A program made the position numbers and the translations under genes. This document shows, piece by piece, positions 2,142-23,245 of a DNA stretch of 41,622 bases. Below the pieces are notes generated by a model, which did no database searches, was not told the DNA's origin, and was given only the letters and a program-made list of their open reading frames with translations. Numbering within the stretch: position 1 is the stretch's first letter; every line of letters begins with the position of its first letter. The stretch comes from a virus. The DNA lies in IMG/VR virus record IMGVR_UViG_3300032080_000011, positions 1 through 41,622 of that record, one strand, 5' to 3'.

Positions 2142-2877
2142 TGATTGCTCCACTCAGAATCGAGCGCACGCGCAGCGAGTTGCGCCGGGCGTGCAAGCGT
2201 CCCGAGTGGCCAGCGGCCGGCTCTGACGTGACCGGCCCCACGGTGGGGTGGCCGTCCTGGGCGGCGCTGGCAAGCGACGTGCCCAGTTGTTCGGTGATCA
2301 GTGTACGGACCAACTCGCGCAGCTCGGAGTGGTCCGGCTGGGAGCGCACGGCCACGATGCCGGCATCCTCGTAGGCGGGGCTCGCGGTGGGTCCGTACTC
2401 GCTCAGGCCCAGCTCGGTGCGCGAGACGATCGGCAGGCCGCCGCGCCGGCCGCGTTCCTTGGACTGGTACACCCGGCCCCGGAAGCTCTGCCCGGTGATC
2501 TGCCCGCCCTTGATGGCGGCCAGGACCGCATCAGCCATCGGCGAGTCGTTGTACCGGGACACCGTGAGCAGGCCCCGGCCGTCGACCCGGGCCTCGAGGG
2601 CGGTCGCGATCGGCACACTGCCCACCATGTTGGGCTGCCCGTCGGCGTCGTAGCCGTGGTTGTAGAGCACCTTGACCTTGCCGGGGCGCCACTCGGCGAG
2701 CGTCTTGTTGAACGCGCCGCGGTGGATGTCCTCGAAATAGTGGCCGTGCTGGTCCCGGATTTCCACCTCGCGGTCAAACACCGCGGCGTACGCGGTCACG
2801 GTCCGGCCGTCCCCGCCGCGCTGGATCTCGATGTCATCCAGGGGGAAGATCCGCTCGTATCGGATGATCTCCGGCAT
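2086..2877 (-). CDS. HK97-family prohead protease
   Basis: A 263-residue serine protease that trims capsid and scaffold during head maturation. The N-terminal strand pattern (TVTAYAAVFDREVEI) and the HRGAF motif near 52 are typical of the family. The likely catalytic His is H74 in VLYNHGYD and the Ser is S131 in GQSFRGRV. The last 60 or so residues are basic and low-complexity and overlap the start of the capsid gene in another frame. ATG 2877 is preceded by GACGGGGAG. It sits between the portal-side genes and the capsid, as expected. Confidence 0.93.
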   Translation of the reverse strand: MPEIIRYERIFPLDDIEIQRGGDGRTVTAYAAVFDREVEIRDQHGHYFEDIHRGAFNKTLAEWRPGKVKVLYNHGYDADGQPNMVGSVPIATALEARVDGRGLLTVSRYNDSPMADAVLAAIKGGQITGQSFRGRVYQSKERGRRGGLPIVSRTELGLSEYGPTASPAYEDAGIVAVRSQPDHSELRELVRTLITEQLGTSLASAAQDGHPTVGPVTSEPAAGHSGRLHARRNSLRVRSILSGAISAQAPDRGGDRVRPGDLP

Positions 2878-2889
2878 GGGTGCTCCCCG

Positions 2890-3432
2890 TCAGACTCGCT
2901 GCAGTAGGGCATGGGACTGCTCAGCCGCGGTCAGCTTGCGGGCCGGCGGCGGTTTCGGTGCGGCCTTCTTCGGCGCCGGCTTGTGGTGCGCGGCGGGCCG
3001 GTGATGGGCCGGGGCCTTGTGGTGGGTCGCCGGCTTGTGGTGCGCAGCGGGCCGGCGGGCGCCGGCCTTGTGCGTGCCGGCCTTGTGCTTGGCGCTGATC
3101 TCCCGGATCTGCTTGAGCAGCGCCGGGGACACCTTGCCGTCGGCGGGCAGGCCGAGCCGGCGTTGCGCCCGCTTGATCGCGGCGGTGGTCCGCGGGCCCA
3201 GCTTGCCGTCCACCTTCAACGGGTTACCGGCCGAGTCCTTGAGGCCGAGCTCATTCAGCGCGGTCTGCAGTTGCTTGACCCGCTTGTCGCCGCCCTTGGC
3301 CCCGTAGCCGGCGCCGGTGCCGTGCTTGGCGTCGTAGCCGACCGTGTCGTTCTCGCTGGACGCGCCCTTGCTCACGAACTGGCCGCCCTGGGCGCCCTTG
3401 CCGCGGGCGTGCTTACTCTCGTCGAAAACCAC
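2890..3432 (-). CDS. Peptidoglycan-binding-domain protein in the head operon
   Basis: A 180-residue protein between portal and protease. Residues 1-22 carry a KHARGKGAQGGQF segment, the Gly/Gln-rich tag often seen in phage head-associated proteins. Residues about 50-108 form a PG_binding_1-like repeat (LQTALNELGLK, VDGKLGPRTTAAIKRAQRRL). Residues about 120-165 are a His/Ala/Pro/Lys-rich tract built from repeats such as PAAHHKP. GTG 3432 is chosen because it follows the portal stop by two bases and the family-like N-terminus begins there; a longer reading frame upstream overlaps portal. No catalytic domain is visible. A head-packaged or portal-linked cell-wall-binding protein is possible; function is uncertain. 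Confidence 0.75.
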   Translation of the reverse strand: MVFDESKHARGKGAQGGQFVSKGASSENDTVGYDAKHGTGAGYGAKGGDKRVKQLQTALNELGLKDSAGNPLKVDGKLGPRTTAAIKRAQRRLGLPADGKVSPALLKQIREISAKHKAGTHKAGARRPAAHHKPATHHKAPAHHRPAAHHKPAPKKAAPKPPPARKLTAAEQSHALLQRV

Positions 3433-3434
3433 GG

Positions 3435-4874
3435 TCAGGCCCCAATCTGGTCGAGCGCATCGGCGGTTGCCTGATCGGAGGCCGGGTCCGGGGCGTTCGG
3501 GTCGGCGTTCGGGTCGACCGCGGCCGGGTCGGCGCCGGCCGGCACCCCCGGTTCCTGCAGCTGCACGCTGAGCATGCCCGAATGCTTGAGCTGCGAGAGA
3601 TCCTCGGCCAGGACCGCCTTGACCGCCGAGTCGGGCACGAACCCACCCGCGATCAGCGCGTTGATGGTGGCCGCGGTGGTGGAGATGGTCTGCGCCAGGT
3701 CCATCGCGTCCTCGCGCAGGAACGCCACGTCGGACGCGTCGTACCAGAGCTCGGCGCCGTCCGGCACCGCCACCAGCGGCGCGACCGCCCCGACAAAGGA
3801 GCGCCACTGCGAGCGCAGGAACAGGTCCCCGTACGCGCGTTTGGCCTGCCCGTAGTTGGAGTACGTGGCCGCCTGCAGACCCTCGGAGAGCCCGACCACG
3901 ATCGGCGGCACGCCACCGGCGGCGGCCACCCGGGTCTCGCCGTGGCCCTGGGTGACCGCGAAGTCGAGCTGGCGCAGGTCGGTGCCGATCGGGGTGACGT
4001 CGGCGCCGCCGCCCAGGTACATGGTCTTGTAGGCATTGCCGATGCCCTCGGTGGACGCCTTGGCGGCGGCCACGAACTCCCGGAACTGCTCCACGGTCAC
4101 GGTGTCCTTGAGCGAGACCGCCAGGTTTGGCGTGGCCGCGTTCGAGAAGAACTGCAGCTTGTGCTGGGTGGAGGCCTGGTCCGCGAGGAATTCCTTGACC
4201 ACCGGGGTGATCCAGGACATCCCCCGGTACTGGCTCTCCGGATCCGGGATCGGTGCCCAGTGCACGCAGTCGTCCAGCGTGTACAGCGCTACCGGGCCGC
4301 GCGAGAGGGGCCCCCCGGCGGTGTATTTGTAGCCGAGAATGTCTGATTCGGTGGCCAGGTCCGGCGGGGCGGACAGGATGAACTCCATCCAGTCCGGCCG
4401 GCGGCGCAACAGCCGCGATCCGTCGCGGGATCGGGCCAAAAAGAAGGTGCCACCAGCGGTGATGTCCTGCTCGGCGCGCAACAGCATCTGTTGGGTGGTG
4501 CCGCCGGGCCAGGGACGCTCCAGCGCCTCGAGATCGGTGTTGCCGAACAGGTCGTTGCCGCCGCCGGACTGCCCGTGCCGGCGGAATTTGAATCGGACCT
4601 CGGAAAACGGCCGGGCGCGGGCCATCGACACCGCGAAAATGACCCCGTTGGCCTTGTAGCAGGCCTGTACGTAGCCGGCGAAGGTGTCCGACGGGGGTTC
4701 CACCCGGCTGCCGGGCATCGTGGTGGTGAACGCGCCGCCGCCGTACGCGCTGCCCTGGAACGTGAACATGGATTCACGCCATTGCACGTACTGATCCCAG
4801 GCCGGGTTATACGAACGGGCCAGGTCGGTGGTTTGCGGGGTCGTCCAGCGGGTCAATTCCTGCAGGAAGCTCAC
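3435..4874 (-). CDS. Portal protein
   Basis: A 479-residue portal, the dodecameric ring at the capsid vertex through which DNA is packaged. The sequence has the SPP1/HK97-like portal pattern: an N-terminal wing region (QACYKANGVIFAVSMARARP), a central segment around FSNAATPNLAVSLKD, and ending with a Pro/Asp/Ala-rich tail. GTG 4874 overlaps the TerL stop as GTGA, so the two are translationally coupled; the frame is open further upstream but only into TerL. Placement after TerL and before protease and capsid supports the call. Confidence 0.92.
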   Translation of the reverse strand: MSFLQELTRWTTPQTTDLARSYNPAWDQYVQWRESMFTFQGSAYGGGAFTTTMPGSRVEPPSDTFAGYVQACYKANGVIFAVSMARARPFSEVRFKFRRHGQSGGGNDLFGNTDLEALERPWPGGTTQQMLLRAEQDITAGGTFFLARSRDGSRLLRRRPDWMEFILSAPPDLATESDILGYKYTAGGPLSRGPVALYTLDDCVHWAPIPDPESQYRGMSWITPVVKEFLADQASTQHKLQFFSNAATPNLAVSLKDTVTVEQFREFVAAAKASTEGIGNAYKTMYLGGGADVTPIGTDLRQLDFAVTQGHGETRVAAAGGVPPIVVGLSEGLQAATYSNYGQAKRAYGDLFLRSQWRSFVGAVAPLVAVPDGAELWYDASDVAFLREDAMDLAQTISTTAATINALIAGGFVPDSAVKAVLAEDLSQLKHSGMLSVQLQEPGVPAGADPAAVDPNADPNAPDPASDQATADALDQIGA

Positions 4875-6331
4875 GCGAACGCTACCCAGGGCAGGACCGC
4901 AGCCTCTTTGCCGTGCGTGACCTGGCCCCACAGGGCATGCGTGACGGCCACCAAGGGGGTGGCGTCCACCGTGGCGTTGCGCCGGTCCCAGGCGTGACCA
5001 TCGCCGACGGGCCGCTTCACTGCGCCCGCCACGGCGGCGGCGAGTTCGTGCTGGCCCAGGTGAGCAATTCGCTGATCCCCGCTGTCTTCCGTGGCCGCGT
5101 CATAGATCATGCCGAAGGCAGATGCTACATCCCTAGTTGTCATCGTTAGGACGTTGACACCTGCTTCCGTCAGTTCTGGTATCAACGATCCGGCCGGGCT
5201 ACCGGGATCGACCACGGTCCCGACCGCGTTGTGAGCCTTATTCAGCCGCGCCAGCTCGGCCACGCACCACGACGTGCCGGCCCCGCCCAGGATGTGTTCG
5301 AGGTGGATCGCGTCGTCGGCGCGGCGCTGCGCCAGGCCGACGGAGGCCCGGACCAGCCCGCCCGAGCGGCTGGTGACATCCAGCGCGAACACCGGGCGCC
5401 CGACCAGCGTGGGCACCGGTCCGGCGTGCGCGTCCCACTGCGCCTTGCTGATCACGCCGTGGCCGAGCGAGAGATCCGGCGGCCAGATGCCGAGGCGCTC
5501 CCGGGCGAAGCCGACCGGATCCATCACGGCCCGCTCCCGGGCGATGGCTTCCTCACTGATCAGCACCGGGAAGGACGGATTGCAGCGCGCCCACAGCGCC
5601 CGGTCGTCCAGGTCGACCGTGGCCAGCGCGTCCAGGCAGCCTTCGGCGCCGTAGTCCAGGTACACCTGGCCGGCGGCGCCGGCTATCGCCTGACGGCGGG
5701 CCCGAAACAGCGCCTCGCCGGTGGCCACGTCCAGCGGTGGACTGCTGCCCAGCCACAACTGTGGGTTCGGCCGGGCGCTCATGGTCGGCAGCACCGCGTC
5801 CACCTGCGGGCCGGTCAGCGCGTACGCCTCATTCCAGATGACCTTGTCGAAGGAGAAGCCTCGGCCGGCGCCCTTGGACCGGGCCAGGAACCGCATCCGG
5901 CCGCCGCCGGCCGCCGGAGTCAGCTCGATGCCCTCTTCGCCGTTCGTGTTGATGATCTTTTTGACCCGCTTGCGCAGGCTATCGGTATTTTCGATTAGCC
6001 CGATCAGCCGGCGGAACGCTTCCATGGCCGTCTTGTACTCGTGTGCCGAGTGCCCGATCAGGCGCTCGCGGGTGACGAACAGCCAGAACAGCCCGAGCGC
6101 CTCAAAGATCGCGTCCTTGCCGTTCTGCCGTGGCGCCACCACCGACACCTGAAACGCGGCCCACTTGCCGTCCGCGGTCTCGCCGAGGCCCAGCTCGAGC
6201 GCGTCGCGCTGCCAGGGGAACAGGTTCAGACCGGCGCTGGCGGCCAGCTCGGCGGCCTCGGCGCCGCTGGAGTAGGCGTACGCCGGGGCGTGGCAGATCC
6301 GGGGCCGGGGCGCGGCAAGTAGCTGGGACAT
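4871..6331 (-). CDS. Terminase large subunit
   Basis: A 486-residue packaging motor with an N-terminal ATPase and a C-terminal RNase H-like nuclease. The Walker A-like motif VVAPRQNGKD is at residues 64-73. The Walker B position reads KVIWNEAYAL (about 163-172), with Asn where most terminases have Asp before the catalytic Glu. Nuclease-type acidic residues occur in VFALDVTSRSGG (about 317), TVVDPGSPAG and a C-terminal GDGHAWDRRN. A hairpin terminator separates it from the upstream gene at 6430. It ends in a GTGA overlap with portal. Confidence 0.95.
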   Translation of the reverse strand: MSQLLAAPRPRICHAPAYAYSSGAEAAELAASAGLNLFPWQRDALELGLGETADGKWAAFQVSVVAPRQNGKDAIFEALGLFWLFVTRERLIGHSAHEYKTAMEAFRRLIGLIENTDSLRKRVKKIINTNGEEGIELTPAAGGGRMRFLARSKGAGRGFSFDKVIWNEAYALTGPQVDAVLPTMSARPNPQLWLGSSPPLDVATGEALFRARRQAIAGAAGQVYLDYGAEGCLDALATVDLDDRALWARCNPSFPVLISEEAIARERAVMDPVGFARERLGIWPPDLSLGHGVISKAQWDAHAGPVPTLVGRPVFALDVTSRSGGLVRASVGLAQRRADDAIHLEHILGGAGTSWCVAELARLNKAHNAVGTVVDPGSPAGSLIPELTEAGVNVLTMTTRDVASAFGMIYDAATEDSGDQRIAHLGQHELAAAVAGAVKRPVGDGHAWDRRNATVDATPLVAVTHALWGQVTHGKEAAVLPWVAFA

Positions 6332-6359
6332 GGCGCCATGGTAGGGACATAGGACGCGA

Positions 6360-6388
6360 AAACGGGCCCCGGTGATCGAGGCCCGTTT
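6360..6388 (-). terminator. Hairpin terminator upstream of TerL
   Basis: AAACGGGCC (6360-6368) pairs with GGCCCGTTT (6380-6388). On the minus strand the stem is followed by TTTT, which fits an intrinsic terminator or attenuator between the putative small terminase gene and TerL. A separate promoter, or read-through, would then be needed for TerL. Confidence 0.7.
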
Positions 6389-6429
6389 CCCTTCCCAGCA
6401 GCATCACCGCGTCAGATGATGCGATCAGC

Positions 6430-9734: not shown

Positions 9735-9899
9735 GGAATAGTGGGCCGGATAGGCCTCGGTGGCCAGGCTCCTGTCCAGGCTGGGCCATCCTGGCCCGGG
9801 TCTTTTGAGTGACCCTGGCCAGGCCATCCGCCCTGGTCACGGCCATTATTGGCGCCGCCTGGCCAGGGTGGCCAGGGTTATGTGCCGCTGGCGCGCTCC
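9735..9899. repeat. Gene-free region rich in TGGCCA / CCTGGCCAGG repeats
   Basis: No gene is visible here. TGGCCA, mostly within CCTGGCC or GGCCAGG, occurs several times (for example near 9761, 9816, 9860 and 9869), and the same motif recurs at 10016-10065. Similar TGGCCA clustering is seen at 20339-20399. Together with the CTAG repeats to the right it forms the largest non-coding control region of the genome. Confidence 0.55.
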
Positions 9900-9931
9900 C
9901 TAGTAGTTAGCACTAGACGGCTAACTACTAG
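9900..9931. repeat. Perfect 11-bp inverted repeat with CTAG core
   Basis: CTAGTAGTTAG (9900-9910) and CTAACTACTAG (9921-9931) flank a 10-nt loop that itself contains CTAGACGG. The stretch from 9900 to about 9970 is AT-richer than the genome, which fits a DNA-unwinding or protein-binding site. Confidence 0.75.
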
Positions 9932-10012
9932 TCCTCTAATTACTACCCCTTAGACACTTCAATAGAGAAAGACCCTGGACACCCTGGACAACACCCCCTG
10001 ACCAGCGCAAAA

Positions 10013-10046
10013 AGGTGGCCAGGGTCCTCGAGGACCCTGGCCACCT
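10013..10046 (-). terminator. 34-bp perfect palindrome followed by T tract on minus strand
   Basis: The left half AGGTGGCCAGGGTCCTC (10013-10029) is the exact reverse complement of 10030-10046. On the minus strand the hairpin is followed by TTTTTGCG, the form of an intrinsic terminator for transcription leaving the primase gene. It also contains two TGGCCA sites. Confidence 0.7.
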
Positions 10047-10106
10047 GCCTGGCCACCCTGGCCAGGGTGTTGGCGCGTCAGTGCAGGTCAGAGCGTTTCC
10101 GTGTCA

Positions 10107-10491: not shown

Positions 10492-12774
10492 CTACACCAC
10501 CGTGCAGCCCACTCCGGTCAGTAGCTGCACGCGCTTGCCCTGCACGCGCACCCGTTCCGCTTTCAGGCCCGGAACTTTCTGCCGCAGGTCCCGGGCGAAC
10601 ACCTCGAGCGTGGTCCGGTCCAGGCTCCTGCCCTGGGTCTCGCACCAGCCCTGATACTTGGCGAACAGGTGGTCCAGCCCGATCGAGTGCTCGGCCCCGA
10701 CATAGCACCAGTCCTCGAGGAACGTCCCGATCGGGTCGGACAGCCGGCGCATGCTCTCGGCCTCGGCCGCCCCGGACTCGGGCACGGTGAACGACCCGCG
10801 CCCGTTCAGCCGCTCGAGGCCGTCCAGCGCCCAGTTGAGGATGCCGGGCAGTTCCTCGATCAGTTTCTCGGTCAGCGCGGTGTCTTCCCGGCCCAGGAAT
10901 GACCGTTCCAGCTTGAGCACGATCATTTTCTTGGCCAGCGCCCCGGACCGGTCGGAGAACGTCGGCGTCTCGTTGCTCATGAGCATCACCCGGGCGCCGA
11001 GCCGGCCGGTCCATGCCGCCCGGTTCTTGCGGTGCACCGTTGGCATGTCCTCGCCCACGATCTCCAGCAGCACCGGCACGGCGTCGCCGATGGTCCGGGT
11101 GTTCCACCGCACGTCTCCGCAGACCGCCAGCATCTTGCCGATCAGCGGCTCGAGGCCGAACGTGCCGCCGAGGTGGGACAGGTTCAGCCCGGCGGTGGCG
11201 TGCTGCCCGATCATGGCCGTGAGCACCCGGGCGATGGTGCCCTTGCCGGACCGCGGTGGGCCGATCAGGGCGGCCATGCGATGCAGGTGCATCCGCCCGG
11301 ACAGCACGTAGCCGAACCACTCGCCCAAAAAGTCGTGCGCCTGCCGGTCGCCGGGCAGGATCGCCTCGAGGAAGGCCAGCCAGGCTGGGCAGGCCGCGTC
11401 GGGCTGGTACGCGAACGGCAGGGCATGCAGGTTGAACCGCGAGGGCGCGTGCGGCTTCTCGGTACGCGTGGCCGAGTCCAGCACCCCGCTGGCGGTGGCG
11501 ATGCCGCCCACGTCCGGGTCGCCGAACCGGCTCAGCACGCCCCGGCTCAGCGCGTGCGCCAGGTCATTGATCTTCCGGGTGGTGGGCGCCCAGGGTTTCG
11601 GTACGACCTCGCCGTCCTTGTCCTCGGTCAGGAACACCGCGTCGGCGGTCTGCGTGTATAGCCAGCGCTGCAGGGCGGCCTCGGGCTCCACCGCCCAGTG
11701 CGTTCCGGTCCAGGCGTAGAAGTCGCCCTCCCACCAGGCCCGGTGCACCTCGCCCTCGGTGTGCTCCATACGGCCCACCAGCTCGCGCGCCACCGCCATG
11801 GGATGCCCGGGTGGGGGCAGGACGTCCTGGGCGCTCTCCGGCGATCCTGTGGCCGCCGCGGGGCCATCCCCGTTCACCTTGACCGCGGTCCAGGACCGCC
11901 CGGCCTCGGTCGCCGAGTAGGCCGAGTCGATGGTCTTGCGGTCGGCCTCGTCCGGTTCGGTCCAGCCGGTGGCCGGGCCCAGTGCCTTGATGACCAGTCG
12001 GGCGCACCGGCCACGGTCGACCAGCCACGGGAAGTGCGCGCACGCCATGGCGAAGGAGTTGATGGCACCGTTGTACCGCCCTGGCTGGGCCTCGCCGAGC
12101 TTGGCCAGGGCGTCCTTGATGAAGGCCATGGCCTGCGGGTCGGTGAACTCGCGGGCCGGCTCGTCGTAGAAGTCGTCCGCCTTACCGGTGGCCGCCGCCG
12201 GGACCGCGGCTGAGCTCGGCGCGGGGGCCCGCTTCGCGCGCATCCGCTCGATGACCACATCCGGCACGGTCGGCAGGTCGAGCCAGGGGAGCCGAACGGC
12301 CCACGTGTAGCCCGCGGTCGGTGGCGCGATGACGAACCCGCCGAGGCCGCGAACGTCCACCTGACCGGCCACCGTGCCGTCCTGATCGTTGCCAATCGGG
12401 TGCCGGTCGTGCTCGCGGAAGTAGTAGTGCTTCCCGCCGCTGACGGTGCGCGCCACCGCCGTTGACCCCCGATACAGCTCGGCCCAGTTGGTCATGCCCT
12501 CGGTGCCGTCGCAGTCGATCACCACGAGGTGGCTCTTGCCGCAGTCGATGCCGAGGCCGGCGCCGCGGTGCTCGCCGTCGGGGCCCCACCAGGCGGCGAT
12601 GTCCGCGGCGCTGGTGGTGGAGATCTGCCGCCATTTGCCGGCCGGCTGGACGTCCTTTTTGCCGTCCGCCTTCCGTTTCACATAGACGGGAAACACGTAA
12701 ATCCCCGCGTTTGCGTACGCGAGGGCAGACGTGAACGGTTCTTCGATGTCACGCTGGTCGGCGTGATCGCTCAT
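10492..12774 (-). CDS. Bifunctional prim-pol / SF3 (D5-like) primase-helicase
   Basis: A 760-residue replication protein. The N-terminal prim-pol domain has the metal-binding DCD in VVIDCDG (residues 87-89) and the SGGKHYYF motif (112-119). A linker with another helical region follows. The C-terminal D5_N/SF3 helicase has Walker A GPPRSGKGT near 500 and downstream sensor-like MLMSNETPTFSD. This architecture starts replication in many phages, plasmids and actinomycete integrative elements (RepPP type). ATG 12774 has a strong ribosome site (AAGGAGA). It is transcribed from a promoter near 12930 through a structured leader of about 140 nt. Confidence 0.92.
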   Translation of the reverse strand: MSDHADQRDIEEPFTSALAYANAGIYVFPVYVKRKADGKKDVQPAGKWRQISTTSAADIAAWWGPDGEHRGAGLGIDCGKSHLVVIDCDGTEGMTNWAELYRGSTAVARTVSGGKHYYFREHDRHPIGNDQDGTVAGQVDVRGLGGFVIAPPTAGYTWAVRLPWLDLPTVPDVVIERMRAKRAPAPSSAAVPAAATGKADDFYDEPAREFTDPQAMAFIKDALAKLGEAQPGRYNGAINSFAMACAHFPWLVDRGRCARLVIKALGPATGWTEPDEADRKTIDSAYSATEAGRSWTAVKVNGDGPAAATGSPESAQDVLPPPGHPMAVARELVGRMEHTEGEVHRAWWEGDFYAWTGTHWAVEPEAALQRWLYTQTADAVFLTEDKDGEVVPKPWAPTTRKINDLAHALSRGVLSRFGDPDVGGIATASGVLDSATRTEKPHAPSRFNLHALPFAYQPDAACPAWLAFLEAILPGDRQAHDFLGEWFGYVLSGRMHLHRMAALIGPPRSGKGTIARVLTAMIGQHATAGLNLSHLGGTFGLEPLIGKMLAVCGDVRWNTRTIGDAVPVLLEIVGEDMPTVHRKNRAAWTGRLGARVMLMSNETPTFSDRSGALAKKMIVLKLERSFLGREDTALTEKLIEELPGILNWALDGLERLNGRGSFTVPESGAAEAESMRRLSDPIGTFLEDWCYVGAEHSIGLDHLFAKYQGWCETQGRSLDRTTLEVFARDLRQKVPGLKAERVRVQGKRVQLLTGVGCTVV

Positions 12775-13403: not shown

Positions 13404-13699
13404 CCGAGCCGAGCGTGCTGGACCTGGCCACGGACATCGAGGCCTTGGGCGCCACCGTGGAAGCGGTGGTGACCACTCTGACTACCGAGTGCATCCACGG
13501 CACCCCCACCGAGCCGGACCGCTGCCTGGTCGCCAACTACTTGACCAAGCTCGGGTATGCCGACGTCGAGGTGTGGAAGGACACGAACAACCGCCTGCGG
13601 ATCTCCGCCGGTGATGACGAGATCCTGGCTCCCGACCAGATCGTCATGCTCGTGGACGCGTTCGACGCCGGGCAGTACCCCGGCCTGCAAGCCCGATGA
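13400..13699 (+). CDS. Small protein of unknown function
   Basis: A 99-residue acidic protein starting at ATG 13400 inside an ATGA overlap. It begins with a coiled helix (VLDLATDIEALGATVEAVVT), then ECIHGTPTEPDRC, and a strand-rich second half (LGYADVEVWKDTNNRLRISA, ILAPDQIVMLVDAF). No recognisable domain. Its end overlaps the XF1762-like gene. Confidence 0.6.
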   Translation: MTEPSVLDLATDIEALGATVEAVVTTLTTECIHGTPTEPDRCLVANYLTKLGYADVEVWKDTNNRLRISAGDDEILAPDQIVMLVDAFDAGQYPGLQAR

Positions 13700-14172
13700 G
13701 CATGGTTCTGGTCCCGGTCACCTTCCGGCAGGCGTGCGAGTTCGTGACCAAGACCCATCGTCATCACCCGGCCCCGCGGGGTTGGCGGTTCGGCGTCGGG
13801 GTGACGGACGCGAGCGGGCAACTGCGTGGCGTCGCCATGGCGGGCCGGCCGGTGGCTCGGGCCCTGGATGACGGGCGCACGGTCGAGGTGAACCGGACCT
13901 GCACAGACGGAATGGCTAACGCGAACTCGATGCTGTACGGCGCCGTCTGGCGCGCCGCCAAGGCGCTCGGCTACGTCCGGGCCATCACGTACACGCAGGA
14001 AGGCGAGTCGGGCGCCAGCTTGCGCGCAGCCGGGTGGGTACTGGACTCCGTACTCGACCCCCGGCCGACGTGGGCCGAGTCCAGCGTGAAGCTGCGGCAC
14101 ATCCGAGATGGCGACAGTCAGGCCGGTGGCGTGACTCGGATGCGCTGGCGCATCACGGCCGGCAGCCCGTGA
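13696..14172 (+). CDS. XF1762-family, GNAT-like protein
   Basis: A 158-residue protein with the pattern of the XF1762 family, which is related to GNAT acetyltransferases: an N-terminal HRHHPAPRGWRFGVGV segment, GVAMAGRPVARALDDGRTVE, VNRTCTDGMANANSMLYGA and a C-terminal AITYTQEGESGASLRAAGW. Such proteins are common in actinophages and mobile elements. Their substrate is unknown. Start ATG 13696 overlaps the previous stop. Confidence 0.82.
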   Translation: MSMVLVPVTFRQACEFVTKTHRHHPAPRGWRFGVGVTDASGQLRGVAMAGRPVARALDDGRTVEVNRTCTDGMANANSMLYGAVWRAAKALGYVRAITYTQEGESGASLRAAGWVLDSVLDPRPTWAESSVKLRHIRDGDSQAGGVTRMRWRITAGSP

Positions 14173-19967: not shown

Positions 19968-20297
19968 CTACAGGTACGAGGCGGAACCGAGGATCATGCG
20001 CGCCAGCTCGGCGAGGTCGGCGTACTGGTTCTCGATCCCGGCCTCGTCATCGTCGCCCCATCTACCCTCGTACGCCTTCGCGTAGATGATCTCGTGCTGC
20101 TTCGCGGTCAGCTCGTACCCGTGCTTTTCGAACATCTGGTTGGAGTGCGCGGCGTACTCGTTGGTCCGCTTCTGCGCGGCCTCGGCAGCCTCGGCGGCGG
20201 CGGCCTGATCGGCGAGCGCGTCCGCCCGGTTCTGCGCCTCTTCGGCGGCTTGGATGGCGGCCTCGGCCTGCGCCCGGAGTTCCTTGGCTGTGAGCAT
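19968..20297 (-). CDS. Coiled-coil small protein
   Basis: A 109-residue protein starting MLTAKELRAQ at ATG 20297, with GGACGGGAGAGGGAC upstream. In-frame ATG 20321 is only 2 nt from the promoter hexamer and is less likely. Residues 1-50 are an Ala/Glu/Arg coiled coil (AEAAIQAAEEAQNRADALAD). The second half (GYELTAKQHEIIYAKAYEGR, ADLAELARMIL) is helical. No family recognised. Confidence 0.65.
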   Translation of the reverse strand: MLTAKELRAQAEAAIQAAEEAQNRADALADQAAAAEAAEAAQKRTNEYAAHSNQMFEKHGYELTAKQHEIIYAKAYEGRWGDDDEAGIENQYADLAELARMILGSASYL

Positions 20298-20323
20298 GTC
20301 CCTCTCCCGTCCTCGATACATTG

Positions 20324-20332
20324 ACTATAGCA
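20324..20332 (-). promoter_or_regulatory. Extended -10 promoter TGCTATAGT for the 20297 gene
   Basis: Minus-strand TGCTATAGT followed by a leader of roughly 20 nt carrying GAGGACGGGAGAGGGAC. It is back-to-back with the TGGCCA array and the plus-strand promoter at 20405. Confidence 0.75.
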
Positions 20333-20338
20333 GAGGTA

Positions 20339-20399
20339 TGGCCAGTGGCCAACCCTCGCTGGCCAACTTTCTGGCCACGCCTGGCCACACGTCTGGCCA
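20339..20399. repeat. Array of six TGGCCA sites upstream of the SpdB-like gene
   Basis: TGGCCA starts at 20339, 20346, 20360, 20372, 20382 and 20394: six copies in 61 bases, between two divergent promoters. TGGCCA continues at high density in the following coding region. It could be a binding site for a regulator or for the neighbouring FtsK/TraB-like translocase. Confidence 0.7.
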
Positions 20400-20404
20400 T
20401 CCTC

Positions 20405-20413
20405 TGCTATAGT
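20405..20413 (+). promoter_or_regulatory. Extended -10 promoter TGCTATAGT of the SpdB-like gene
   Basis: TGCTATAGT at 20405-20413, then 7 nt, then ATG 20421. A leaderless start is predicted. Confidence 0.8.
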
Positions 20414-20420
20414 CGTGGAC

Positions 20421-21359
20421 ATGACCGATACCTTGCCCACCACCCCGCCGGCCTGGCCACTGGCCAAGGCACTGGCCAACCTGTGGACCAACTCTGTGGC
20501 CTACGTGGCCCTGCTGGCCAGCGCCGGACTGTCCATGGCCGGCAACGTGGCCGATGTCCTGCGCACCCGTGGCCACGCGATCGACGGCCTGGACGTGGCC
20601 ATTGCCGTGGCCATGCCGGCGCTGGTCGTGCTGGCCGTGCACATGTTCGTGTCCCCGCGCTGGGACGGCCTGGCCTGGCCCATGCAGACGCTGCGCTGGG
20701 CCGGCTGTCTGGCCATCGGCGGGATGGCCATGTTCGTGTCCTGGTTCCACCTGCATGACCTGCTCGTGGCCAGGGATCAACCGACCGCGGCCACCATCCT
20801 CGAACCCCTCGCGCTGGATGCCATGGCCGTGATGGCCACCGCGCTGCTGCTGGCCGGTCGGCGCACCGTGGCCACCGCCGCGACCCTGGCCGAGCTCGGC
20901 GAGTTACAGGCCCGTGTCCTGGCCATGGACACGCAGGTGGCCACCCTGAGCAACACCCTGGCCAGCGAGCGGCGCCAGGCCACCCGGCGCAATGGCCAGT
21001 GGCCCGAGGACTGGCTGGCCGACCAACCAGTCCACCGCAACGAACGTGGCCAGTGGGTAGCCGATGACCTGGCCACGCCCACGGTGGCCAACGGCGTTGT
21101 CCACGAGGCCGAGACGATCCTGCGCCTGGCCGGTCTGCCCACGGCCGAGGACCTGGCCAACCGCCCGGATCGGCTCGGCCGACTGGTCAGTGGCCCGGAC
21201 AAGCCGGTGGCCATCCCGGAAGGCGTGGCCGAGCTGGTCGAGCGGATGACCAACGCCGGCGCCACGGTGGCCGAGCTGAATGAGGCCATCGCCGAGGCGT
21301 ACGAGGTGAGCCTGCGGACTGCGCGCCGGTGGCGTGGTCAACTCAAGGGCGGCGAGTAG
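20421..21359 (+). CDS. DUF2637/SpdB-like membrane protein with C-terminal HTH
   Basis: A 312-residue protein. The first half has four hydrophobic segments (VAYVALLASAGLSMAGNVAD, AIAVAMPALVVLAVHMFV, WAGCLAIGGMAMFVSWFHL, DAMAVMATALLLAGRR), the DUF2637 pattern found in actinomycete plasmid spread/transfer proteins. The soluble second half ends in a probable HTH (ATVAELNEAIAEAYEVSLRT, then ARRWRGQL). In mycelial actinomycetes such proteins act with a TraB translocase, and an FtsK/TraB-like gene lies next to it on the other strand. The coding sequence is strikingly rich in TGGCCA. ATG 20421 is preferred over GTG 20415 because of the promoter spacing. Confidence 0.75.
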   Translation: MTDTLPTTPPAWPLAKALANLWTNSVAYVALLASAGLSMAGNVADVLRTRGHAIDGLDVAIAVAMPALVVLAVHMFVSPRWDGLAWPMQTLRWAGCLAIGGMAMFVSWFHLHDLLVARDQPTAATILEPLALDAMAVMATALLLAGRRTVATAATLAELGELQARVLAMDTQVATLSNTLASERRQATRRNGQWPEDWLADQPVHRNERGQWVADDLATPTVANGVVHEAETILRLAGLPTAEDLANRPDRLGRLVSGPDKPVAIPEGVAELVERMTNAGATVAELNEAIAEAYEVSLRTARRWRGQLKGGE

Positions 21360-21463: not shown

Positions 21464-23245
21464 TCAGGCGTCCGGATCGTCGCCCCGCTTGAGCGCCAGC
21501 CACTCGTATAGGTCATCCAGGCGGTACAGCTTCGCGCCTTTCTCGCCGGTGCCCATCTCGTCGGGGAAGTTCCGGCCGTCGCGCTGGGAGTGCAGCCGGA
21601 GCGCACTGAGGGTGTACGGCACTTCCTCGAGCTCGGAGAAGTCACGCAGGGTCACGTATTCCTCGGTGCTGTCCTGCGCCGATGCAGCGGCATCCCAACT
21701 GGGGAATGTAGGTACATCGTGCCGCTGCATCATCACCCTGACGTCCAGCAGTCGATCACCGCCGGTAGCGAACGCGATTAACCGTTCGGATTCCATCTTG
21801 AGGTCCGGGTAGGCGGCCTGGAACACCGTGGCGGCGCCGGCCACGACGTAGCCGAACCGGCCCGGCTTGCTACTGATGGCCGGCTTTTTCATCGCGGTGC
21901 CGCCGACCAGTCGCCATGCACCCACCGGCAGCCGTCCGGCCAGGGCGAACGCGCCGAAGTTGTTCCGGGAACCGATGTCTGCCTTGGTCACCTCCTGGGC
22001 GGCGAGCACCACGTTGATGCCGAACGACCGGCCCATGCTGGCCAGGCGGTCCAGGGCGGCCAGGGCCGGCGCCCGCATCGGCGCACCGGTGGGCCGGGTG
22101 GCCAGCCAGTGATCCCGGATGACCGTCTGCAGGCTGTTGCGTTCCTCGAGGACAACCACGATCCGGTCAAAGGTCGGCTCAGGTTCGCCCGCGTCGGCGC
22201 ACCGGGCGGCCTCGCCGCCGCGGCGGCGCAACTCCATGTCCAGCCACAGCACAGTGTCGTGGATCATCTGCGCCTCGCGGCAGTACAGCGTCTCCGGGAT
22301 CCGGGCTAGCCAGCCGTGGCTGACGTACTTGGGGTCGAGCACCACCGTGCCGGCGCCGCCGTTCATGAACTGCGCGACGATCCAGGCCATCAGTTCACTC
22401 TTGCCCGAGCCGGACCCCCCGCCGATACCGATGTGCGGGCTGTCATCGCCGAGGTCCCAGAACACCGGGCCAGCAGCGGCCATGCCCAGGAACGGCCGGG
22501 TAGTGCTGGCGTACTGCAGCATGGTGTGCCAGTCGACCAGGGCCGGCGGTTGCGGCGGGGTCCACAGCTCCATGTACGGCTTGGCGCCCTCCATGTTCCA
22601 CCGCGCGTCGAGCGCCTCGTGGCCGAGTCGTTCGCGCACGACGTCCAGCAGGCGGTCCCGGTCGCCCTCGTGGACCTGGTTGGGCGGCAGCCCGATACGG
22701 CCGGTGGCGGTGACGTCGGCGCCGCGGACCATGCCGCGGGGGATGTCCACGTAGATGCCGTCGCGGGTGCGCAGCACCGCCCAGGCGGCCTGCCGGATCG
22801 GCCTGAGGTAGTTGCGCTCGTGGGCGTAGTTCTGCACGTAGCGCACGCCGGCCAGCGCGCCGTAGCCGAGGATCGGCGTCCATGCCACGCCCGGCGCCCA
22901 GGTGTCCAGCCACCACGGGTCGCGCAGGCCGAGGTAGTCGGTGCCGGCGCACACTGCGGTCCAGGGCAGCAGGCCGAACGCGGGCAGCCGGGTCATCAGT
23001 AGACCGCGTTTCCAGCCGGGCCAGTAGTTGTACGCGGCAGTGTGGCCGCTGACGGTGAAGGCCTGGGTGCCGGCGTGCCAGAACGTGGCGTCGGTGCGGG
23101 CGTGGCCGTCCAGCGGGCGCCCGGTGAGGAACCGGTACGCGAACGCGGTCTTGGCGTAGCGGCCCAGCAGGACCGGGATCGGGTCCTCGGAGGTGGCCCG
23201 CCAGGCGGTATCGGGTGCGTCAACGTCGAGGAAGGTGCCGGTCAT
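21464..23245 (-). CDS. FtsK/SpoIIIE/TraB-like DNA translocase
   Basis: A 593-residue ATPase. Walker A is GGGSGSGKSEL at about 272-282 and the Walker B-like strand is RIVVVLEE at about 360, where Glu replaces the usual Asp. FASTMGRSFG-like LASMGRSFGINVVLAAQEVT further on is the usual FtsK/HerA sensor region. Two hydrophobic stretches near 80-130 may be membrane segments. The C-terminal 90 residues (LYRLDDLYEWLALKRGD) form an extra helical domain that could recognise DNA. Such ATPases pump double-stranded DNA; in actinomycete plasmids the relative TraB moves DNA between hyphae. ATG 23245 has AAGGGAC upstream. Confidence 0.85.
   Translation of the reverse strand: MTGTFLDVDAPDTAWRATSEDPIPVLLGRYAKTAFAYRFLTGRPLDGHARTDATFWHAGTQAFTVSGHTAAYNYWPGWKRGLLMTRLPAFGLLPWTAVCAGTDYLGLRDPWWLDTWAPGVAWTPILGYGALAGVRYVQNYAHERNYLRPIRQAAWAVLRTRDGIYVDIPRGMVRGADVTATGRIGLPPNQVHEGDRDRLLDVVRERLGHEALDARWNMEGAKPYMELWTPPQPPALVDWHTMLQYASTTRPFLGMAAAGPVFWDLGDDSPHIGIGGGSGSGKSELMAWIVAQFMNGGAGTVVLDPKYVSHGWLARIPETLYCREAQMIHDTVLWLDMELRRRGGEAARCADAGEPEPTFDRIVVVLEERNSLQTVIRDHWLATRPTGAPMRAPALAALDRLASMGRSFGINVVLAAQEVTKADIGSRNNFGAFALAGRLPVGAWRLVGGTAMKKPAISSKPGRFGYVVAGAATVFQAAYPDLKMESERLIAFATGGDRLLDVRVMMQRHDVPTFPSWDAAASAQDSTEEYVTLRDFSELEEVPYTLSALRLHSQRDGRNFPDEMGTGEKGAKLYRLDDLYEWLALKRGDDPDA

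Follow-up and report, generated by a model that had tools for sequence, protein, structure and literature searches.

A TGGCCA array within and beside a phage SpdB-like gene as a possible private docking site

A tailed-phage genome record carries 27 copies of TGGCCA within 875 bp, six of them between two divergent promoters and 21 inside the adjoining SpdB-like gene. We analysed positions 1 to 41,622 of IMG/VR record IMGVR_UViG_3300032080_000011 (hereafter the window, 41,622 nucleotides), which contains terminase, portal, protease, capsid and tail genes. The array is a real feature and, judged from sequence, appears to be under selection at the DNA level. We see an about even chance that it is a private, multi-copy protein docking site belonging to a phage-borne SpdB/TraB module. 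Similar arrays, each with an element-specific motif, occupy DUF2637-HTH genes of related phages, plasmids and phage-plasmids.

The SpdB-like protein shares its layout, a predicted membrane domain followed by a C-terminal HTH, with Streptomyces SpdB proteins (Table 1). Its match to DUF2637 (PF10935) falls just under the cut-off of 22.8 (21.5 bits, E=2.4e-4), and the same profile scores over the cut-off for two other elements described below (L009, 38.0 bits; L107, 24.8 bits). The C terminus matches HTH_23 (E=0.028), and an AlphaFold model built from two sequences consists of helices only, with a mean pLDDT of 47; we drew no conclusion on the fold from it. Adjoining this gene downstream, on the opposite strand, is a translocase gene whose motor has a Walker A motif and is of the FtsK-like RecA type, with a PF01580 match below cut-off. 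The motor model comes closest to TcpA, a conjugation coupling protein (Z 17.2), followed by FtsK (Z about 14.8); this comparison covers mainly the motor (residues 152-514) and is therefore uninformative on the winged helix. Both proteins have predicted DNA-binding C termini. Neither found a match among GenBank phages by tblastn, nor did the SpdB-like protein on its own in an IMG/VR search. Of the window genes that were searched, none was recognised as an integrase. A Mom-like DNA modification protein is encoded at 13696-14172 (phrog_1384, E 1.3e-34).

Table 1 Coordinates of the array, its neighbouring features and separate arrays in other elements
Feature	Sequence	Position	Strand	Remarks
Divergent 117-aa alanine-rich ORF	Window	19968..20321	-	Small gene
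TATAGT -10 box of divergent small gene	Window	20324..20329	-	Conserved in L011
Six TGGCCA sites between divergent promoters	Window	20339..20399		Homologous cluster between same promoters in L011
TATAGT -10 box of SpdB-like gene	Window	20408..20413	+	7 nt before ATG; TTATAGT in L011
SpdB-like gene	Window	20421..21359	+	Membrane domain with weak DUF2637 match, linker, C-terminal HTH
21 further TGGCCA sites in SpdB-like ORF	Window	20454..21213		Above synonymous-codon nulls
SpdB-like C-terminal HTH	Window	21267..21347	+	Helix 283-309 in low-confidence model; TARRWRGQL identical in L011
TraB/FtsK/DUF87-like translocase, 593 aa	Window	21464..23245	-	DUF87 25.3 bits, cut-off 23.2
C-terminal winged helix of translocase	Window	21488..21658	-	Residues 530-586, pLDDT about 75-87 in model
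Second non-coding TGGCCA cluster, 8 copies, mostly CCTGGCCA	Window	9761..10064		Near primase gene
pRL2-11-family array	L102	4101-4700		
pRL2-11-family array	L110	1249-1623		
pRL2-11-family array	L114	about 2665-4429		
pRL2-11-family array	L116	2801-3300		
pRL2-11-family array	L119	2601-3200		

A preliminary description had reported six TGGCCA sites in 61 bases between divergent promoters, where about one per 3 kb would be expected. The count proved exact (starts at 20339, 20346, 20360, 20372, 20382 and 20394), a TATAGT box flanks the cluster on each side, and dinucleotide shuffles gave a close expectation of about one per 2.7 kb. What had been missed was the continuation of the array through the plus-strand gene. 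In none of 200 Markov-1 simulations of the window did a 61-bp stretch exceed two copies or an 875-bp stretch five, against the observed 6 and 27. The whole-window count (88 copies versus 15.5 +/- 3.5 in the shuffles) exaggerates the anomaly, because most other long genes contain roughly the number of TGGCCA predicted from their own codons. Synonymous-codon permutation of the SpdB-like gene, the strictest null, predicted 10.9 copies, and none of 20,000 permutations reached the observed 21; draws from the phage's own codon usage predicted 6.2, with a maximum of 14 in 1,000. The excess is about two-fold under the strictest null because the gene is rich in LA and VA dipeptides and GCC codons, a richness that makes the null conservative if the motif shaped the protein. 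The claimed density above composition thus stood up to dinucleotide shuffles, Markov-1 copies and synonymous-codon nulls. The motif is a 6-bp palindrome with variable flanks, none of them constant, and its in-gene copies span codons 12-263.

These biases open a different route to the array, in which an LA/VA-rich protein with a preference for GCC, CTG and GTG codons yields TGGCC by itself, with duplication carrying copies into the intergenic region. The protein has 15 LA, 13 VA and 4 MA dipeptides, GCC provides 46 of its 55 alanine codons, and 17 of the 21 in-gene sites lie in one frame, as NTG-GCC-A. The permutations, however, kept both the protein and its codon usage, and further sites fall in the other two frames (3 and 1) and in non-coding DNA. 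In unrelated elements, genes of this type carry motifs that are independent and different, at a much larger excess, and positions turn over in a relative while density is kept. We consider such an artefact very unlikely indeed.

That relative, a Streptomyces MAG contig (L011), encodes a translocase 82% identical to the window's. Its SpdB gene holds 26 TGGCCA, with a further cluster between the same divergent promoters. The two genes have 71% nucleotide identity and share 9 in-gene TGGCCA positions, with 11 and 15 aligned ones unshared; because density was kept though so few positions are shared, selection appears to act on density. L009, with a translocase 67% identical to the window's, has a different SpdB gene with TGTCCC packed into its linker (11 sense copies versus 1.4 expected; 14 counting both orientations), and L002, at about 50% identity, has GTCTCC (7 versus 1.0). 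The L002 translocase gene is split into two frames (4708-6428), and GTCTCC/GGGAGA motifs run on into it. Relatives with the same translocase and no array had been named beforehand as evidence against the array's significance. L098 (translocase 59% identical) goes part of the way towards this, having no array; L011 kept it.

The six intergenic copies could instead be a repressor operator of the divergent promoters, the in-gene copies being incidental. Their clean position between two conserved -10 boxes, an arrangement that L011 retains, is what an operator would predict. It leaves unaccounted for, however, 21 in-gene copies that exceed the codon nulls and turn over in position at kept density, as well as the arrays of L009, pRL2, L107, L109 and LukeCage, which lie mainly in the coding linker. 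This phage's other GCTATAGTC promoters also lack a cluster: the promoter-like element occurs at eight places in the window (7076, 9723, 13075, 18591, 20323, 20406, 23485 and 25245), and a TGGCCA cluster accompanies the 20.3-kb pair alone, the others having 0 or 1 copy nearby. An operator alone is therefore very unlikely in our estimate, and the earlier suggestion of an operator for the SpdB-like HTH can explain the intergenic copies only, most of the array being in the gene. The same distribution over the eight places led us to reject TGGCCA as a general promoter element. The element at 20406 is only 7 nt before the ATG, which suggests leaderless transcripts.

We surveyed DUF2637 genes for arrays with a uniform test. 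A z of at least 6 was reached by 12 of 22 genes of phages and other mobile elements, a set gathered by homology that includes near-identical phages, so that its statistics are not independent. The same score was reached by 3 of 54 genes in the chromosomal DUF2637 survey, which had few arrays and served as a negative control, and by 1 of 126 control genes. The window gene itself scored only 4.6. The motifs are private to their elements: GGCGGACA in pRL2 (GGCGGAC(A), 11 versus 3.1 expected), CGGAAC in L109 (21 versus 5.3), CGCTCA in L107 (32 versus 6.3), GAGACC in L108 (28 versus 16.1), CGAGACG/CGTCTCG in the genomic element L042 (CGAGAC, 16 versus 4.7) and CGTGACA in the isolated Streptomyces phages LukeCage, Yaboi and Enygma (14-15 versus 3-4). 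A Streptomyces goshikiensis linear plasmid has a GGTTCCG array that extends into the intergenic stretch preceding its translocase gene. Arrays are absent from pPR2, pFRL3, pFRL6 and L113, as from L098, and from most chromosomal DUF2637 genes. In the papers searched we met no description of arrays embedded in DUF2637 genes, though an earlier one may exist.

Two of these elements, L108/L125 (NZ_CP107756) and L107/L124 (NZ_CP108353), are circular 93-kb Streptomyces 'plasmids', and NZ_CP107756 has terminase, portal and scaffold genes and so looks like a phage-plasmid. In both, the neighbour of the DUF2637 array is a large gene whose product ends in a winged-helix-like domain, and no second array was seen elsewhere in either plasmid.

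A satellite phage bears on which protein reads the array. MulchRoom (L130) has its own DUF2637 gene at 11331-12287 with a private CACGACA array (CGACA, 25 versus 10.9 expected; TGACA, only 2), while its helper MulchMansion has TGACA 17 times, GGACA 16 times and CGACA once. A translocase gene is missing from MulchRoom, so the motif goes with the DUF2637 protein, and this case favours the SpdB-like protein over the translocase as reader.

The array could also be a clt/TRS locus proper, read by the winged-helix C terminus of the translocase, which would load there, with the SpdB gene merely its host. The winged helix is modelled with confidence, and in Streptomyces the clt repeats specific to a plasmid are bound by TraB/TraA proteins (PMC3583192; PMC12857230). 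LukeCage (L129) has a second, non-coding array, dense in TGTCAC(G)/CGTGACA, at 78.6-78.75 kb (L129 about 6119-6260); it is located about 2.3 kb downstream from a gene annotated as FtsK-like, which ties the motif to the translocase as well. In L009 both the translocase winged helix and the motif are unlike those of the window, as this reading would predict, but the SpdB-like protein changes too. Against this reading stand MulchRoom, the first LukeCage array, housed in the DUF2637 gene with the FtsK-like gene about 60 kb away, and motifs that are palindromic or mixed in orientation. We regard it as possible but doubtful. The preliminary proposal of a clt/TRS-like site thus fared well in that element-specific clustered repeats recur in relatives' SpdB/TraB modules, and less well in making the translocase their reader.

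If the array is a docking site for the SpdB-like protein, that protein would most likely bind TGGCCA in its own gene and in the adjacent intergenic region, and so tether or collect phage DNA at the membrane or septum. Together with the neighbouring FtsK/TraB-type translocase, it could then anchor phage DNA or pump it between compartments, in a clt- or centromere-like role. The setting would be a filamentous actinobacterial host, a type we infer, in which DNA moves between hyphal compartments. The intergenic copies are probably also autoregulatory, and would let the SpdB-like protein control its own divergent promoters.

An iteron-like replication site or partition centromere, unrelated to translocation and shared with the cluster at 9.76-10.06 kb, would give the array another role. 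That second non-coding cluster lies near the primase gene, and spdB2 loss is reported, in work cited in PMC4170104, to destabilise SLP2. On the other side, the window genes searched included none recognised as of ParA/ParB type, and the array-bearing BE-cluster helper phages are described as virulent (PMC10690885), with no obvious need for stable maintenance. We judge this reading improbable. The second cluster itself is a candidate origin or second docking site on its sequence features. It contains a strong hairpin, GGTGGCCAGGGTCCTCGAGGACCCTGGCCACC, and several CTAGNCGNCTAG-type palindromes follow just after it, near the primase gene.

KOPS are polar and dispersed. The KOPS/SRS motifs of FtsK/SpoIIIE resemble the present array in that a short motif is associated with an FtsK-like motor. 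TGGCCA, by contrast with a polar motif dispersed along the replicon, is palindromic and forms clusters, and relatives whose motifs are not palindromic carry them in both orientations; the suggested likeness to FtsK-type short oriented motifs was therefore given up. The Streptomyces clt/TRS loci of pSVH1, pJV1, pIJ101 and pWTY27 come closer, being plasmid-specific clusters of short repeats beside traB-type genes that are bound by TraB/TraA (PMC3583192; PMC12857230). The window likewise has clustered, element-specific short repeats in a tra/spd region. TraB loading sites are needed in cis for transfer and are contacted by TraB through its C-terminal winged helix, a domain that the model of the window translocase also has. 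Unlike the direct repeats of about 8 bp in clt/TRS, the arrays here are embedded through a phage DUF2637 gene as 10-30 copies of 5-8 bp that are palindromic or mixed in orientation. By analogy, we are evenly divided on whether the array works like a clt or centromere, and kinship to the TRS family would be putative only.

The pIJ101 sps/SpdA2 system also has a DNA-binding Spd protein with sites inside its own coding region (PMC4170104). Its sps site, of which there are 2-3 copies, is a conserved palindrome of 12 bp, common to many plasmids and read by a zinc-finger-type protein (PMC4170104), whereas the arrays here are private, many-copy motifs (6 bp in the window) paired with a DUF2637-HTH membrane protein. 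Work cited in PMC4170104 describes SpdB2 of pSVH1 as a DNA-binding membrane protein that is oligomeric and a partner of TraB, and its DNA binding is reported to be non-specific (PMC4170104). BE-cluster Streptomyces phages such as LukeCage resemble the window in combining a DUF2637-HTH gene and its private array (CGTGACA) with an FtsK-like translocase; they differ in that the two genes are about 60 kb apart, and the window proteins have no tblastn match to theirs.

A broader and more speculative reading, which we think unlikely as a whole, is a self-addressed DNA-spreading system shared by phages, satellites and phage-plasmids. A DUF2637 protein would read the array in its own gene and a motor would cross hyphal cross-walls, giving mycelial spread without lysis. 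If so, private motifs would keep one element's machinery off another's DNA. Recognition sequences specific to each element and written into the coding DNA of DUF2637 genes, a widespread family found in at least 106 phage records, would assign that family a function. They would also provide a rule for spotting clt-like sites from sequence, and make testable the way in which DNA of phages and plasmids passes the septa of mycelial bacteria. The helper and satellite pair, with its different motifs, is a ready natural experiment.

Streptomyces elements of the pRL2-11 family carry a separate kind of array, of CGCACC (L102, L110 and L114) or CGGTCA + GCTTGCCC (L116 and L119). They have no DUF2637 gene; the arrays lie upstream of a replication-relaxation family gene, and their motifs differ while the TraB C termini are near-identical. 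We did not count these arrays as support, since they seem to be a feature of their own whose reader is probably a different protein.
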